Source: Roseivivax jejudonensis (GTDB taxonomy: Bacteria > Pseudomonadota > Alphaproteobacteria > Rhodobacterales > Rhodobacteraceae). From it: DNA of 64,000 nucleotides. Where the stretch lies: positions 372,001-436,000 of the forward strand of contig NZ_FWFK01000004.1 in the NCBI RefSeq assembly GCF_900172265.1, given 5' to 3'. This document shows positions 32,483 through 39,692 of this stretch, in pieces (positions within the stretch are counted from its first letter, which is position 1; the number at the start of each line of letters is the position of its first letter). The notes under the pieces were generated by a model. It saw only the letters and a list, made by a program, of their open reading frames with translations, had not been told where the DNA came from and did not search any database. The position numbers and the translations under genes are program-made.

Positions 32483-34810
32483 GTGCCTTCATTCTCGAAC
32501 ACTCTTGAGCAGGCCATCCACGCGGCGCTGGCGCTGGCGAATTCGCGCAGCCATGAGTTCGCGACGCTCGAGCATCTCCTTCTCGCGCTGGTCGACGAAC
32601 CGGATGCCGCCCGCGTGATGAAGGCGTGCGACGTCGATACAGAGGACCTTCGCACCAGCCTGGTCGAATTCATCGACGGTGACCTGTCCAACCTCGTCAC
32701 CGACATCGAAGGATCGGAGGCGGTGCCGACCGCGGCCTTCCAGCGTGTCATTCAGCGCGCCGCCATCCACGTGCAGTCGTCGGGCCGCACCGAGGTCACC
32801 GGCGCAAACGTGCTCGTCGCCATCTTCGCCGAGCGGGAATCGAACGCGGCCTACTTCCTGCAGGAGCAGGAAATGACGCGGTACGACGCGGTGAACTTCA
32901 TCGCACATGGCGTCGCCAAGAACCCCGCCTACGGCGAAAGCCGCCCGGTCCAGGGTGCCGCCGAGGAGGAAGAAGCCCAGCAGGCAGAAACCGCCGCCGC
33001 CGGCGACCAGAAGGAATCGGCTCTCGGCAAGTATTGCGTCGATCTCAACGCGAAGTCCCGCAAGGGGGACGTCGACCCGCTGATCGGGCGCGACGGCGAG
33101 GTCGAGCGCTGCATCCAGGTGCTGTGCCGCCGGCGCAAGAACAACCCGCTGCTCGTGGGCGATCCCGGCGTCGGCAAGACCGCAATCGCCGAAGGCCTCG
33201 CGCGCAAGATCGTCAACGGCGATACGCCGGAGGTTCTCGCCAACACGACCATCTACTCGCTCGACATGGGCGCGCTGCTCGCCGGGACCCGCTACCGCGG
33301 CGACTTCGAGGAGCGTCTGAAGGCCGTGGTCAACGAGCTCGAGGAGCATCCCGACGCGGTGCTGTTCATCGACGAGATCCACACCGTGATCGGCGCCGGC
33401 GCGACATCGGGCGGCGCGATGGACGCCTCCAACCTCCTGAAGCCTGCGCTTCAGGGCGGGCGGCTGCGCACCATGGGCTCCACCACCTACAAGGAGTTCC
33501 GCCAGCACTTCGAGAAGGACCGCGCGCTTAGCCGCCGGTTCCAGAAGATCGACGTCAACGAGCCGTCCGTCGAGGACAGCGTGAAGATCCTCAAGGGCCT
33601 GAAGCCCTATTTCGAGGAGCATCACGCGATCAAGTACACCAACGATGCGATCAAGACGGCGGTCGAGCTTTCGGCGCGCTACATCAACGACCGCAAGCTG
33701 CCCGACAAGGCGATCGATGTGATCGACGAAGCCGGTGCGGCCCAGCACCTCGTGGCCGAATCGAAGCGGCGCAAGTCCATCGGCGTGAAGGAAATCGAGG
33801 CCGTGGTGGCCAAGATCGCCCGCATCCCGCCGAAGAACGTGTCGAAAGACGACGCAGAAGTCCTGCGCGATCTCGAGGGCTCGCTGAAGCGCGTGGTCTT
33901 CGGCCAGGATCCGGCGATCGAGGCGCTGTCCTCGGCGATCAAGCTGGCACGGGCCGGCCTGCGCGAACCGGAAAAGCCGATCGGCAACTACCTGTTCGCG
34001 GGTCCGACCGGCGTCGGCAAGACCGAGGTCGCCAAGCAGCTGGCCGATACGCTCGGCGTGGAGATGCTGCGCTTCGACATGTCGGAATACATGGAGAAGC
34101 ACGCCGTCAGCCGTCTGATCGGCGCACCGCCGGGCTATGTCGGGTTCGACCAGGGCGGCCAGCTGACCGACGGCGTGGATCAGCACCCGCACTGCGTGCT
34201 GCTGCTCGACGAGATCGAGAAGGCGCACCCGGATGTCTACAACATCCTGCTGCAGGTGATGGACCACGGCTCGCTGACCGACCACAACGGCCGGACGGTC
34301 GATTTCCGCAACGTGATCCTCATCATGACCTCGAATGCCGGCGCGACAGAGCAGGCGAAGGCGGCGATCGGCTTTGGCCGGGACCGTCGCGAGGGCGAGG
34401 ACACCGCGGCGATCGAGCGGACCTTCACGCCGGAATTCCGCAACCGTCTCGACGCGGTGATCTCGTTCAAGCCGCTGCCGCGCGAGGTGATCCTGCAGGT
34501 CGTCGAAAAGTTCGTGCTGCAACTCGAGGCCCAGCTTCTGGACCGTGGCGTCACGATCGAGCTGACCCGTCCCGCCGCCGACTGGCTGGCCGAGAAGGGC
34601 TACGACGACAAGATGGGGGCTCGCCCGCTGGGCCGCGTCATCCAGGAGCACATCAAGAAGCCGCTCGCCGAAGAGCTGCTCTTCGGCAAGCTCCAGAAGG
34701 GCGGCGTCGTCCGCGTGTCGGTCAAGGACGACACGCTGCAGCTGGATCTCGACGGTCCCGAGAAGCGGCGCCTGTCGTCGAAGCGTCCGCCGCTGCTGAC
34801 CGCAGAGTGA
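32483..34810 (+). CDS. clpA: ATP-dependent Clp protease ATP-binding subunit ClpA
   Basis: A 775-residue AAA+ unfoldase that feeds proteins to ClpP. Clp N-terminal repeats (1-145, FATLEHLLLALVDEP), first AAA module with GDPGVGKT and VLFIDEIH, second module with GPTGVGKT, LIGAPPGYVGFDQGG and VLLLDEIEKAH, and the IGF loop (AAIGFGRD) that docks on ClpP. No coiled-coil middle domain, so it is ClpA and not ClpB. The start is GTG with GAGGAG ten bases upstream. clpS, usually just before clpA, is absent here. The stop overlaps the start of a secreted M23 peptidase. Confidence 0.96.
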   Translation: MPSFSNTLEQAIHAALALANSRSHEFATLEHLLLALVDEPDAARVMKACDVDTEDLRTSLVEFIDGDLSNLVTDIEGSEAVPTAAFQRVIQRAAIHVQSSGRTEVTGANVLVAIFAERESNAAYFLQEQEMTRYDAVNFIAHGVAKNPAYGESRPVQGAAEEEEAQQAETAAAGDQKESALGKYCVDLNAKSRKGDVDPLIGRDGEVERCIQVLCRRRKNNPLLVGDPGVGKTAIAEGLARKIVNGDTPEVLANTTIYSLDMGALLAGTRYRGDFEERLKAVVNELEEHPDAVLFIDEIHTVIGAGATSGGAMDASNLLKPALQGGRLRTMGSTTYKEFRQHFEKDRALSRRFQKIDVNEPSVEDSVKILKGLKPYFEEHHAIKYTNDAIKTAVELSARYINDRKLPDKAIDVIDEAGAAQHLVAESKRRKSIGVKEIEAVVAKIARIPPKNVSKDDAEVLRDLEGSLKRVVFGQDPAIEALSSAIKLARAGLREPEKPIGNYLFAGPTGVGKTEVAKQLADTLGVEMLRFDMSEYMEKHAVSRLIGAPPGYVGFDQGGQLTDGVDQHPHCVLLLDEIEKAHPDVYNILLQVMDHGSLTDHNGRTVDFRNVILIMTSNAGATEQAKAAIGFGRDRREGEDTAAIERTFTPEFRNRLDAVISFKPLPREVILQVVEKFVLQLEAQLLDRGVTIELTRPAADWLAEKGYDDKMGARPLGRVIQEHIKKPLAEELLFGKLQKGGVVRVSVKDDTLQLDLDGPEKRRLSSKRPPLLTAE

Positions 34811-35772
34811 TGCTGCGCGCCAGTGCAGCGATCCTGATCGCCTCCGCCGCGCCTGCCGCGGCGGAGGCTTTTCTGTCCGTGCCGCTCGACTGCACGCTCG
34901 GGCAGGACTGCTTCATCGAGGATTATCACGACGTCCAGCCCGGCCCCGGGCAGCAGGACTATACCTGCGGGATCAAGTCGCGCGACGCGCACTACGGCAC
35001 GGACTTCGCGCTTCTGTCCTTCAACGCGATGGAGCGTGGCGTCGACGTGCTCGCGGCGGCCGACGGCGTGGTCGAGGCGACCCGAGACGACGAGGACGAC
35101 ATCCCCTTCACGCCCGAACGCCGCGCCGCGATCGAAGGACGCGAGTGCGGCAACGCCGTGCGCATCGGCCACGACAACGGGTACCAGTCGCTCTACTGCC
35201 ACATGAAGAAGGGCTCCATCGCCGTGTCGAGCGGCGACCGGGTTTCGGCCGGCGACACGCTGGGCCAGGTCGGGCTGTCGGGCGAAACCAATTATCCTCA
35301 CGTGCATTTCGCGCTCTTGCGCGGCTCCGAGCGGGTCGATCCCTTCGCGCCGGACAGCACCGCGACCTGCGGCGCCGGCGGCGACACGCTCTGGCTGGAT
35401 CCTCCCGCGTATATCCGCTCGGGGCTCTTCACCGCCGGTTTCTCGATCGAAGTGCCGACCTTCGAGGACGTGCAGTCGGGCGCCGCGCGGCACAAGCGCT
35501 CTGCGCCGAACGAGCCGCTCGTGCTCTACGGCCACGCCTTCTATCCAGAGGCCGGCGATGTCCTGAACCTGTCTGCTAAGGGGCCGGAGGGCGAGATCTT
35601 TGCCGAGGACGTGATGATCGAAGAAAGTCGCGCGCAGCTCTTTCGCGCCGTCGGCCGCCGCGCCCCCGACACGGGCTGGCCCGAGGGCACTTATCACGGC
35701 AGCGTCCGGCACACCCGCGGGGATACCGTGATCGCCATCCGCCACGCCGAGATCGACGTCACCTCCGACTGA
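34810..35772 (+). CDS. Secreted M23 (LytM-type) peptidase
   Basis: A 320-residue exported protein (signal peptide to about residue 19). The zinc ligands are visible: HYGTDF (H-x3-D), RIGHDNGYQSLYCHM, and HVHFALL (H-x-H). These enzymes cut peptidoglycan cross-bridges. The C-terminal third (about 225-320) is a beta-rich domain of unknown type (EPLVLYGHAFYPEAGD). It has no SD sequence of its own and starts in TGATG with clpA, so its translation depends on clpA, an unusual partner for a cell-wall hydrolase. Confidence 0.85.
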   Translation: MLRASAAILIASAAPAAAEAFLSVPLDCTLGQDCFIEDYHDVQPGPGQQDYTCGIKSRDAHYGTDFALLSFNAMERGVDVLAAADGVVEATRDDEDDIPFTPERRAAIEGRECGNAVRIGHDNGYQSLYCHMKKGSIAVSSGDRVSAGDTLGQVGLSGETNYPHVHFALLRGSERVDPFAPDSTATCGAGGDTLWLDPPAYIRSGLFTAGFSIEVPTFEDVQSGAARHKRSAPNEPLVLYGHAFYPEAGDVLNLSAKGPEGEIFAEDVMIEESRAQLFRAVGRRAPDTGWPEGTYHGSVRHTRGDTVIAIRHAEIDVTSD

Positions 35773-35805: not shown

Positions 35806-37794
35806 TCAGCCCTCCGTCAGCTTAAGCTCGATGCGCCGGTTCTGAGCCCGCGCCTCCGCGGTGTCAGCGGGATTGATCGGCTGGTACTGTCCGAACCCGT
35901 TGGCAGCCAGCCGCTGCGGCGACAGGCCGTGTTCGTCGATGAGGTAGCGCACCACTGACAGCGCCCGCGCCTGGCTCAGATCCCAGTTGTCCTCGAACCG
36001 TGCGTTTGCGCGCACCGGCGTGTCGTCGGTATGCCCGTCGACGCGGATCACCCAGTCGAGCTCGTCGGGGATGTCCGCGGCCACGCGCTGCAGAATGTCG
36101 GCCACGCGCGCGATCTCCTGCCGCCCCTGCGGCGACAGCGTGTCCGCGCCCTGCGCGAACAACACCTCGGAGGAAAAGACGAACCGGTCGCCTTCGATCC
36201 GGACACCCTCGGTGTCGCCCAGAACCTCGCGCAGCCGCCCGAAGAACTCCGATCGGTAGCGCTCCAGGTCCTGCGCCTCCGCCTCAAGCCGCTGGCGCTC
36301 CGCCTCTTCCAGCGCGCGCCGGCGGCGCTCCTCGGCGGCGACCTGGGCCAGCGCCTGGTTCAGGTCCTGGCCAAGGGTCTGCAGCTCCACCTGCGCCGCC
36401 GCGTCGCGCGCCTTGTAATCGTCGAGCAGCGCCTGCAGCTGCGACAGCTGCGTGCGCAACGTCGCGACCTGCTGGTTCAAAAGCTCGGTCTGGCGCACCG
36501 CCTCGTCGGCCCGGTCGCTCTCGGTCGCCAGCTCGGCGCGCGCCGTTTCGAGAAGCGCCGCGCGTGTGTCGGCCTGCGTCTGCGCATCCTCGGCAGCGCC
36601 CTCGGCCTCCTGCCGCGCCGCCAGCGCCGCGACCAGCCGGTCGCGCACCTCGGTCTCCGACAGCTCGGCCGCCTCTTGCGCCGCGACCGCGGCGGCCAGC
36701 AGTTCCGACAGCTCCGCCGAACGCGCCTCGGCGACGTCGAGCTCCGCCCGCAGCGTCTCGGCCGTTTGCGCCCGCTCCTCGGCTGCGGCGCCCTGCGCTG
36801 CCAACTCCGCCTCAAGTGCCGCGGTTTCGTCCTCGAGGGCGGCGATGCGCGCCGTTGCCGACTGCGCCGCATCCGCCTCGGCCAGCGCCTGCGCGAGGCG
36901 CGCGTTCAGGTCGTCCTCCGCCGCCCGCGCCGCGGCCAGCAATGTCAGCGTCTCCTCCGCCTCCGCGCGCTCGGCTTCGAGCGCCAGCGTCATCGCCGTC
37001 AGTTCGGCGTTGGCGGCCTCGAGCCGGGCGCGCAGCGCCCGCGCGGCCTCCGCCTCGGCCAGCCGGGCCTGCTCTTCTTCGGTCAGCTGCGCCTCCAGCC
37101 CCTCGACCTCGCCCGAAAGCGCGGCGATCCGGCCGCTCGCCGCGTCGCCCTCGGCACGCAGATCGGCCACCAGCGCCTCGAGCGCCTCGCGCTGCGCCGC
37201 GGCCAGCCGCGCGGCCTCGGCCTCGCGGTCGGTCTCGGACCGCGCCTTCGCCAGCGCCAATTCCAGCGCGTCGCGCTCCTCGGCCAGCGCGTCGCGCGCC
37301 GCGGTCAGGTCCGCCTCGGACGCACTCAGAGCCGCGACCTCGGCCTCGGCCTCCTCCTGCCGTGCCAGAAGCGCCGCGACCCGGTCCTCGAAATCGGCGA
37401 TTTCGGCCTCGGCCGCGGCAAGATCCGCCGCCTGCGCATCGCGCGTCTCGGACAATTGGCGAATGATGGCATCCTGCTCGGCCAGCCGCGTCTCGGTGTC
37501 GTCGAGCGTCGCCGTCAGCTCGCCCAGCTGTCCCTCGAGCGCCGCGTTCTCGCGCTCGGCCACCCCGAGCGCCGAGGCGAGCGAGGAGACCTCGGCGGCC
37601 AGCTGCGACAGCCGGCTTTCCTGGCTTTCGATCTGGGTCTCCTGCCCGGTGATCGTCTCGCGCAGGACGAACTGGATCACCATGAAGATCGTCAGCACGA
37701 ACATGAGCACGAGCAGAAGGCCGGTCATCGCGTCGACGAAGCCCGGCCAGATCGCGGTCTGGACGCGTTGCCCGGATCGGCGCGCCAGCGCCAT
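35806..37794 (-). CDS. MotB/OmpA-like stator protein with very long coiled coil
   Basis: A 662-residue protein. Residues 1-19 are cytoplasmic; one membrane helix (about 20-44, FVDAMTGLLLVLMFVLTIF) carries an aspartate (D21) where MotB, ExbD and ZorB have the proton-binding Asp. Residues about 45-511 are nearly pure Ala/Glu/Arg coiled coil without proline. The end (512-662) is an OmpA/MotB peptidoglycan-binding domain (VDGHTDDTPV, NWDLSQARA, NRRIEL). With its MotA/TolQ-like partner (3 bases before it) it should form a proton-driven unit in the inner membrane. The coil is far longer than in MotB. Function is unknown; no flagellar genes are near. Confidence 0.85.
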   Translation of the reverse strand: MALARRSGQRVQTAIWPGFVDAMTGLLLVLMFVLTIFMVIQFVLRETITGQETQIESQESRLSQLAAEVSSLASALGVAERENAALEGQLGELTATLDDTETRLAEQDAIIRQLSETRDAQAADLAAAEAEIADFEDRVAALLARQEEAEAEVAALSASEADLTAARDALAEERDALELALAKARSETDREAEAARLAAAQREALEALVADLRAEGDAASGRIAALSGEVEGLEAQLTEEEQARLAEAEAARALRARLEAANAELTAMTLALEAERAEAEETLTLLAAARAAEDDLNARLAQALAEADAAQSATARIAALEDETAALEAELAAQGAAAEERAQTAETLRAELDVAEARSAELSELLAAAVAAQEAAELSETEVRDRLVAALAARQEAEGAAEDAQTQADTRAALLETARAELATESDRADEAVRQTELLNQQVATLRTQLSQLQALLDDYKARDAAAQVELQTLGQDLNQALAQVAAEERRRRALEEAERQRLEAEAQDLERYRSEFFGRLREVLGDTEGVRIEGDRFVFSSEVLFAQGADTLSPQGRQEIARVADILQRVAADIPDELDWVIRVDGHTDDTPVRANARFEDNWDLSQARALSVVRYLIDEHGLSPQRLAANGFGQYQPINPADTAEARAQNRRIELKLTEG

Positions 37795-37797
37795 GGC

Positions 37798-39072
37798 TCA
37801 GCCCTCCCGGCTCTGTTTGGTCTGGAACCGCTGCGGCCGCACGGTCGAGGAGGGCCCCTGCCCCGTGCCGCCTGCGGCCGCGCCCGATCCGCCACTCGCC
37901 GGCGCCGTCTGACCGCGTGGCGCGGTCTGCCGGCTGATCTGGCCCAGCGTCCGCGTGAGCGCCGCCAGATCGGTACGCAGCTCCGCCATGCTTTCCTGCC
38001 GGCCGGCCGAGATCTCCTCGAGCAGGCGCAGCATCTGCACGTCGATCGACCGCAGCCGCATCCGGCTTTCGGCGTCGAGCGCGCCCTCGGTCTCGCGCGA
38101 GCCCAGCGCCTCGACAAGACGCTCCTGCCCGTCCGCGATGCGGTTGAGCGCGGTGGCCGACGGCGCCGTCGCCTCCATCCGCTCGGTCATGCGTTCGAGC
38201 GAATCCGCCAGTTGGCCCAGCCGCGCCTCGACCTCGCTGCGCGCATCCTCGGACCGGGCATAGAGCGACTGCATCGCCTCCATCTGGTCGGCCACCTGTT
38301 CCAGAGCGAGCGCCGCGCCGGACATCTCGTCGCCGCCGTCGGACGCCGACACGCCGATCCGCGTGATCGACGACAGCCATTCCTCCAGCTCACGGTAGAA
38401 CCGGTTCTGCCCGTGTCCCGCGAACAGCTCCAGCAGCCCGACGATCAGCGACCCGGCCAGACCCAGAAGCGAAGAGGCAAAGGCCACGCCCATGCCGCCC
38501 AGCTGCCCCTCGAGACCGTTCATCAGGCGGGCGAAGACCTCGGTCCCGCTCTCGCCATCCTCCGGCACCAGGCTGCGGATCGTGTCGACCAGCGCCGGCA
38601 CCGTCGTCGCCAGCCCGTAGAACGTGCCGAGCAGGCCGAGAAAGATCAGCAGCGACACGATGTAGCGGGTGATCTCGCGCGCCTCGTCGATCCGCTGCGC
38701 CACCGAGTCGAGGATCGAGCGCGTCGAGGTCGTGGTGATCTGCATCCGCCGCCCGCGCGAACGCAGGAGCGTCGCCAAAGGCGCCAGGAGGCGCGGGGCG
38801 CGCCGTTCGCGGTCGTCGCGCCCGCCGGTTACGAAGCCCTCGATCCAGCGCACCGACGTGATGATCTGCGCGACCTGCCAGAAACAGGCGAGCACGCCCA
38901 CCACGAAGACCGCGAGGATGAACCCGTTGAGATACGGGTTCGCCTCGAACACCGGCAGCACCCGCGGCAGCGCCATGATGGCGCCCGCCACGCTCAGCAC
39001 GAGCACCGCCACCATCGCGAGGGTCTGGCGGATCGGCTGGGAGAACTGGGGATCGACGTCCGGCTGCGCCAT
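37798..39072 (-). CDS. MotA/TolQ/ExbB-family proton channel protein
   Basis: A 424-residue membrane protein. Two N-terminal helices (about 17-35 and 49-70), a cytoplasmic loop, then the conserved pair of channel helices YIVSLLIFLGLLGTFYGL and GMGVAFASSLLGLAGSLIVGLL, as in MotA/TolQ. The C-terminal 190 residues are cytoplasmic: helical (SEDARSEVEARLGQLADSLERM) then a Gly/Ser/Gln-rich disordered tail. It is upstream of the MotB-like gene in one operon, so the two form a stator. It is not typical MotA (different loop) and not TolQ (much longer tail). Confidence 0.85.
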   Translation of the reverse strand: MAQPDVDPQFSQPIRQTLAMVAVLVLSVAGAIMALPRVLPVFEANPYLNGFILAVFVVGVLACFWQVAQIITSVRWIEGFVTGGRDDRERRAPRLLAPLATLLRSRGRRMQITTTSTRSILDSVAQRIDEAREITRYIVSLLIFLGLLGTFYGLATTVPALVDTIRSLVPEDGESGTEVFARLMNGLEGQLGGMGVAFASSLLGLAGSLIVGLLELFAGHGQNRFYRELEEWLSSITRIGVSASDGGDEMSGAALALEQVADQMEAMQSLYARSEDARSEVEARLGQLADSLERMTERMEATAPSATALNRIADGQERLVEALGSRETEGALDAESRMRLRSIDVQMLRLLEEISAGRQESMAELRTDLAALTRTLGQISRQTAPRGQTAPASGGSGAAAGGTGQGPSSTVRPQRFQTKQSREG

Positions 39073-39158
39073 CGGCGGACCGCCTCTCGGAAACGCTAGG
39101 GGTTTGAATGCAAAATCACGTTCGGACCCTATGCGGGTTCACGGGGCAAGCCAAGCGG

Positions 39159-39692
39159 TCACGCTGCAAGTGCACGGACACGTTCGCTTAACCATTGCAG
39201 TTCTGCATCCGGGATGCCCAGTTCGGCCAGATGACTGGCGGTATTCCAGAGATACTCGGTATTGGGTCCGCGTCCGCCCACCGCGCGGGCGATGATCTGC
39301 GCCTGCTCCTCCAGCGTCAGATGCGCCGCGTACTGCACGTGATCCGGGTCGATCACGTAGGCCAGCGCCGTCAGCGCGCCGTCGGGGGTTTCGAGTTCGA
39401 CCAGCCGTTCGAGGTAGGCCGAGGAAACGAGTTCGCGCTCGCGCAGGTAGGCCAGCACCGCCTCGGTCTCGTCGTCCTGCGCGGCCAGCGCGAGCCCGTC
39501 GCAGGACGCCCCCGGCTGCGCGTCGAGAGCGAGAACGAGGCCCGGATCCTCGGCGGTGCCGCGATGATGGACGGAGCGCATGCAGAAGCTGCGGTGGTAG
39601 CCGGTCAGCCGGGCCCGGCGGGTCTGAGCGACCTCGAACCCCGGGTTCCAGAGCAGCGATCCGTATCCGAACACCCAGAGGGTCATGGCCAT
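39159..39692 (-). CDS. Gamma-glutamylcyclotransferase, ChaC type
   Basis: A 177-residue enzyme of the ChaC family, which releases 5-oxoproline and Cys-Gly from glutathione. The substrate loop VFGYGSLLWNPGF is at residues 7-19, and the catalytic-glutamate helix follows RERELVSSAYLER. The end WNTASHLAELGIPDAEL is typical. The 5-oxoproline made would be recycled by the PxpABC enzyme also in this window. ATG 39692 and 39686 are both possible; the second has better SD spacing. Confidence 0.88.
   Translation of the reverse strand: MAMTLWVFGYGSLLWNPGFEVAQTRRARLTGYHRSFCMRSVHHRGTAEDPGLVLALDAQPGASCDGLALAAQDDETEAVLAYLRERELVSSAYLERLVELETPDGALTALAYVIDPDHVQYAAHLTLEEQAQIIARAVGGRGPNTEYLWNTASHLAELGIPDAELQWLSERVRALAA

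Follow-up and report, generated by a model that had tools for sequence, protein, structure and literature searches.

Architecture of the locus

The window, a 64,000-nucleotide stretch of Roseivivax jejudonensis DNA, carries on its minus strand a gene for a MotB-like subunit (B) and, 3 bp upstream of it, a gene for a channel subunit (A); both open reading frames are intact (Table 1). A first-pass annotation, made from the letters alone, had described the pair as a MotA/MotB-like stator whose B partner has a very long periplasmic coil. As a whole its observation was confirmed, while its interpretation is partly supported.

The genes flanking the pair were checked by family profiles and synteny and encode GloB, ClpA, an M23 peptidase, a ChaC-like protein, a DUF2125 protein and an ArgE-type deacylase, in agreement with the first-pass statement that flagellar, Tol and Exb neighbours are lacking. 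Rhodobacteraceae for the most part retain this arrangement, with ChaC-A-B facing M23-ClpA-GloB. The ChaC-like gene, on the same strand as A, is retained in most of them. The M23 peptidase gene (34807-35772, plus strand) is convergent with B, its start overlaps the clpA stop, and its place is kept in several, not all, Rhodobacteraceae. An open frame of 1022 aa that lies opposite the two genes (36031-39099, plus strand) is most likely a by-product of the high GC composition.

Table 1. Features of the A-B locus, in window coordinates.
Feature	Position	Strand	Basis or remark
Gene B: MotB-like subunit, 662 aa (TM helix, long coil, PG-binding domain)	35806..37794	-	NF006542, 790.6 bits
B OmpA/MotB-type PG-binding domain, residues about 531-661	35812..36204	-	PF00691, Foldseek, alignment
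B periplasmic coiled coil, residues about 44-518	36241..37665	-	No Pro; heptad register; AF2 helices
B TM helix, residues about 19-42, signature WPGFVDAMTGLLLVLMFVL	37669..37740	-	
Codon of B Asp21, putative ion-carrying residue	37732..37734	-	ZorB D24 equivalent by position (PMC11890865)
Gene A: MotA/TolQ/ExbB-type channel subunit, 424 aa, four predicted TM helices	37798..39072	-	
A cytoplasmic helical tail, residues about 250-383	37924..38325	-	AF2
Codons of A Ser200-Ser201, TM4 motif GMGVAFASSLLGLAGSL, S201 invariant	38470..38475	-	
Codon of A Thr150, TM3 motif FLGLLGTFYGL, invariant column	38623..38625	-	
ChaC-like gene upstream of A	39159..39692	-	PF04752, E = 4e-43; conserved neighbour, at most a putative member of the system
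TM, transmembrane; PG, peptidoglycan; AF2, model-predicted structure.

B carries a membrane Asp and an intact peptidoglycan-binding site

Position 21 of the B TM helix, picked out in the first pass as an Asp in the channel position, is Asp in 162 of 162 orthologues, collected with a search pattern that admitted Asp or Asn; an acidic TM residue is what is expected of B subunits in the 5:2 ion-driven motor superfamily. The C-terminal domain, previously read as an OmpA/MotB peptidoglycan-binding domain, is indeed one, matching PF00691 (E = 3e-19) and, by Foldseek, the MotB-like PDB entry 3khn (E = 1.7e-12). H588, T589, D590, L606, R610 and R653 are invariant or nearly so in the orthologue alignment. 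PG-binding residues are known from work on Pal and ZorB (PMC11890865), and by correspondence read from alignments and that paper, the OmpA Asp/Arg pair and ZorB T187, R203 and R254 are matched by D590, R610, T589 and R653.

B is a clear member of NCBIfam NF006542 (PRK09039.1-1; 790.6 bits against a curated cut-off of 388), one of the entries NF006542-NF006546 (PRK09039). The first-pass annotation had allowed that the family might already be described with a known job: it does have a name, "peptidoglycan -binding protein", and the function is left blank. The literature searched held no functional study of the NF006542 family and no experiment on A or B, and neither the CenKR nor the DalA paper refers to the pair in the passages searched; presumed R. 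sphaeroides locus tags also led to nothing relevant. What we describe here for this family is a register-locked coil of free length and a placement on the Zor side of the motor superfamily.

A is closest to ZorA-like channel subunits

In structure comparisons, the predicted model of A came nearest to TolQ, ExbB and ZorA (Z of about 10-11), and it aligned with MotA across all four TM helices at Z of about 9. Helical bundles form a background at Z 7-9 in such comparisons, so we also relied on motif and tree evidence; Foldseek E-values were weak (best 0.011). Although A falls below the gathering cut-off of PF01618 (E = 0.037), its predicted fold bears out the TolQ/MotA-type partner proposed in the first pass. 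The traits of A subunits in the 5:2 superfamily, an ExbB/MotA fold with a TM3 Thr and a TM4 Ser/Thr, are present, and with the invariant Asp of B, the ExbB-type TM3/TM4 motifs of A and the intact PG-binding site the stator-like reading of the pair holds. AF2 places three helices in the A tail (250-302, 304-329 and 334-383). Short A proteins (about 297-321 aa, with little tail) were paired with short B coils in a first sample, a relation that was weak in a larger one (r = 0.29).

Profile searches linked A to ZorA1 (E = 1e-12) and B to ZorB3 (E = 3e-27). In a tree of 56 A-type sequences, in which branches are long and the ZorA set had been picked with a ZorA profile, the A family forms one clade (100/98) that is sister to ZorA-like sequences (99/84) and not nested within them, and that is set off from TolQ/ExbB and flagellar MotA (99/90). 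Two sequences labelled MotA (mot_L269 and mot_L271) lie on long branches outside the flagellar group. The family is thus closest to ZorA-like proteins, nearer to them than to flagellar MotA. ZorAB itself is a PG-anchored 5:2 motor (cryo-EM 8qyd and 8vvn; PMC11890865); its TM Asp, D24, is matched by Asp21, its GTFxGL and TAFxxS motifs are shared with A, and its OmpA-type PG domain has H, T, L, R and R residues that correspond to those of B. A 2025 survey of MotAB relatives reported no OmpA-type domain in non-flagellar B subunits (PMC12505986), a pattern to which the B family, like ZorB, is an exception.

With MotAB/PomAB the pair shares a MotB-type PG domain (NWxLSxxRA motif), a four-TM A subunit and a TM Asp, but it lacks a MotA_N match and a flagellar context and forms a separate clade; MotB has a short plug and linker, whereas B has a coil of hundreds of residues. 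With TolQR/ExbBD it shares the core fold of A, the GTxxG motif in TM3 and an envelope setting, but B ends in an OmpA/MotB-type domain rather than a TolR/ExbD domain. The pair has neither the TolR-type B and tolA/tolB/pal neighbours of Tol-Pal nor the ExbD-type B and TonB partner of ExbBD-TonB, and the same genome encodes a separate TolQ/TolR (G000:C19) and an ExbB beside an ORF that reads as TonB-receptor-like from its sequence (G000:C17). A third, weak PF01618 match in this genome (G000:C20) falls within a large ORF of unrelated kind and was put down to chance.

The coil of B appears locked in register but free in length

In Roseivivax B, 496 residues separate Asp21 from a conserved FF motif at the coil end, of which about 473-475 are coil, close to the roughly 465 proline-free, Ala/Glu-rich residues of the first-pass count and likewise without Pro. 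Across 150 non-redundant B orthologues, no Pro occurs in 59,927 coil residues; a previous set of 104 sequences, cut a little differently, had 2 in 51,866. Windowed power at 3.5 residues was 2.88 in the B coil, compared with 1.01 +/- 0.24 and a maximum of 1.97 in 200 shuffles, and a 7-state register model (HMM) gained 0.169 nats/residue against at most 0.035 for periods 5, 6, 8 and 9. Only two register shifts interrupt the 473 residues, near residues 313 and 497. AF2 models residues 19-525 as almost all helix at moderate confidence (mean pLDDT 72). Heptad periodicity, register model and AF2 helices leave unsupported a mostly disordered region, which the first pass had named as an outcome that would count against its reading.

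The distance from Asp21 to FF ranges from 140 to 2197 residues in the 150 orthologues (median 412), and its remainder on division by 7 is strongly biased (24, 6, 3, 77, 7, 1 and 32 in classes 0-6; p = 1e-41). The bias persists when only the 93 distinct lengths are counted (p about 2e-14), where moduli 5, 6 and 8-11 show nothing. Moduli 6, 8 and 9 likewise had small p-values across the non-redundant orthologues (8e-7 for modulus 9); as this signal is gone among distinct lengths, it probably reflects shared ancestry. The three favoured classes lie 4 apart, as heptads plus hendecads would produce. Among 52 disjoint nearest sister pairs of differing length, 21 differ by an exact multiple of 7 (7.4 expected; p = 4e-6), and in pairs more than 60% identical, 48 of the 83 indel blocks have a length divisible by 7 (12 expected; p = 4e-20, gap blocks within one pair being not fully independent). 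Lone uncompensated indels of 7, 14, 35, 56 and 91 residues are borne between close relatives. Altogether, the quantised lengths, the indel blocks and the register model argue that the coil is real and continuous, and suggest that its length may be almost any, if changed by whole heptads.

Coils of Rhodobacterales span about 300 to 2200 residues, while the distance is exactly 178 in S. meliloti and seventeen members of a rhizobia-type group. One orthologue (L049; G022:C12, 9902-16994, plus strand) encodes 2364 aa in one frame with a coil of about 2170 residues; its register shifts, about 30 and all of one kind, suggest hendecad-like insertions. Internal repeats were rejected as a source of coil length, blastp having found no self-matches in the coils of five B proteins.

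The first-pass annotation had noted that a straight coil would measure about 69 nm, far more than a normal periplasm, and had proposed that it folds back, runs along the wall or is looped. The problem is real, and relatives make it more acute: one orthologue would reach about 325 nm if straight. Folding back is disfavoured, because the lone uncompensated indels of 7-91 residues suit a parallel dimer better than a hairpin; these and the lack of a mod-14 preference argue, short of proof, against an antiparallel arrangement. A long coil would therefore have to bend, or else take an oblique course or one along the wall. The heptad-quantised lengths support a coiled coil that is continuous, parallel and in register, and that in Rhodobacterales is free to vary in length; given this register constraint, B most likely acts as a rod or cable of two strands without a break. 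The 178-residue coil, at about 23 nm, could roughly cross the periplasm. Since coil length varies so widely, we rejected a periplasmic ruler for the class as a whole; it could still apply where the coil is fixed at 178.

The pair is core to Alphaproteobacteria and has a probable rgsF neighbour in Sinorhizobium

Among 385 alphaproteobacterial genomes sampled, 250 have A, nearly always as one copy; beyond this class it turned up in few Pseudomonadota only (299-genome phylum sample). The pair is vertically conserved and core to the class. No phage record searched matched A, and recruitment from phage was rejected on this basis. In one complete genome of 0.9 Mb (L187; G092:C2), the A gene shows two in-frame stops by search, which suggests decay in a reduced genome.

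In loci from beyond the Rhodobacteraceae, the pair mostly comes last in a block that holds thiE, efp and an inositol-monophosphatase (IMPase) gene, joined in some by glycolytic genes and a gene for a secreted Sel1-repeat protein. In 19 of 48 class or phylum loci (L053, L054, L056-L059, L160, L162-L165, L167, L168, L171, L174-L176, L190 and L191), a further gene, C, lies directly upstream of A. Its products measure about 300 to over 1000 aa, carry a signal peptide and are strongly Pro-rich over a long stretch, and their OmpA-like domain is without the usual PG-binding Asp; no NCBIfam family scored above cut-off, and Rhodobacteraceae, the Roseivivax-type genome included, have no orthologue.

In S. 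meliloti CP090106.1, the order is thiE, sel1-repeat gene (381 aa), IMPase, A, B. This 3.7-Mb record (L273, L274) is labelled plasmid pSymB, probably wrongly; its size and genes such as pgk, purE and hemH point to the S. meliloti chromosome. Near the pair lies a 605-aa M15 peptidase that matches RgsC (SMc04010) in corrected length and domain, and four gene steps from it a DUF1036 gene occupies the expected place of RgsB (SMc04006). Counting gene by gene from the peptidase via the RgsB position identifies the sel1-repeat gene, two genes upstream of A, as rgsF (SMc03995), by numbering and domain and without sequence comparison. RgsF is a periplasmic, essential protein with Sel1 repeats that is needed for polar growth, and its depletion yields short round cells (PMC7327166, PMC5929573). 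This numbering would make A SMc03993, a gene reported to contain a ChvI-bound fragment (PMC3687685); one paper gives SMc03994 as ribosomal protein S21 (PMC9611204), which clashes with the IMPase that our numbering puts there. We rejected the pair itself as an Rgs pair: the Rgs proteins are others, and rgsF is a neighbour.

Searched at E up to 1e-5, the Roseivivax-type genome gave no RgsF match, and matches in other Rhodobacteraceae are mostly weak (best E = 1.5e-23), such cross-matches being expected of a Sel1-repeat query; the rgsF link may thus not carry over from the rhizobia-type setting to Rhodobacteraceae. It may also be incidental, because the block holds the housekeeping genes thiE, efp and IMPase as well.

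A candidate peptidoglycan-anchored motor for the envelope

With moderate confidence, we propose that A and B form a non-flagellar, ion-driven, PG-anchored inner-membrane motor of the 5:2 type, on a ZorAB-like branch, that serves envelope growth or division. The motor class is likely; the role in envelope growth, drawn from gene neighbourhood in other orders, is our best current guess. By analogy with ZorAB and MotAB, an A pentamer would enclose two B TM helices, and ions, probably protons, would cross via Asp21 and the TM3/TM4 hydroxyls of A, driving A against B. The two B chains would exit the membrane as one parallel, in-register coiled coil ending in two PG-binding domains, a continuous and torsionally coupled tether anchoring the motor to peptidoglycan, so that force could act between inner membrane and wall. 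In Rhodobacterales, with coil length freed, the coil would presumably lie obliquely or along the wall. The site of action is most likely cell-wall growth or division. The first-pass annotation had spoken of a proton-driven envelope machine of unknown use; its stator-like reading stands, and the rgsF neighbour narrows the use without settling it. More tentatively, Mot, Tol, Ton and Zor may have an additional ancestral counterpart in this pair: a class of rotary motor that is ion-driven, anchored to PG and devoted to alphaproteobacterial wall growth or division. It would pass torque or pull through a parallel coil selected for register, not length, and so could work with tethers of about 20 to over 300 nm.

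The coil could instead be a passive or mechanosensing linker that joins inner membrane and peptidoglycan and fixes or monitors the distance between them, with ion flow secondary or gated. The intact PG-binding site, the register-locked coil and its fixed 178 residues in the rhizobia-type group agree with such a linker, but the invariant Asp21 and the conserved TM3/TM4 hydroxyls indicate ion use and the range of 140 to 2197 residues contradicts a class-wide spacing ruler; we regard it as unlikely. Quite unlikely, too, is a Tol/Ton-like transducer that moves an outer-membrane partner, with gene C as a TolA/TonB-like or Pal-like protein. The position of gene C speaks for this, as does the co-precipitation of S. 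meliloti TolQ/TolR with the Rgs network including RgsF; against it, Rhodobacteraceae do without gene C, which is therefore not obligatory, and B ends in a PG-binding domain instead of a TolR/ExbD fold.

The sister position of ZorA-like proteins and the ZorA1 and ZorB3 matches raise the prospect of Zorya-type anti-phage defence, in which A-B would sense phage perturbation of the envelope and fire a cytoplasmic effector. Zorya, however, has ZorC/D/E effectors, whereas the tested genes adjacent to this core pair are none of these; it has a long cytoplasmic ZorA tail and a short ZorB linker, whereas here the A tail is short and the long coil is periplasmic and in B; and near-universal single copies with conserved synteny are unlike a mobile defence gene. 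We consider defence very unlikely. A flagellar or gliding stator, suggested by the MotB-type PG-binding domain of B and the MotA-like four-TM topology of A, was rejected as highly improbable, as the genome has no flagellar MotA_N (PF20560) match, flagellar neighbours are lacking and the A clade is separate from alphaproteobacterial flagellar MotA.

The motor-like A-B pair, present in most Alphaproteobacteria without a known job, marks a large gap in envelope biology. Its coil, varied about 15-fold in length among orthologues with the heptad register kept, is a clean natural experiment: since length varies while register stays, what each contributes to a tether under force can be told apart. 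Through the neighbouring rgsF, a part in polar growth is open to direct testing.
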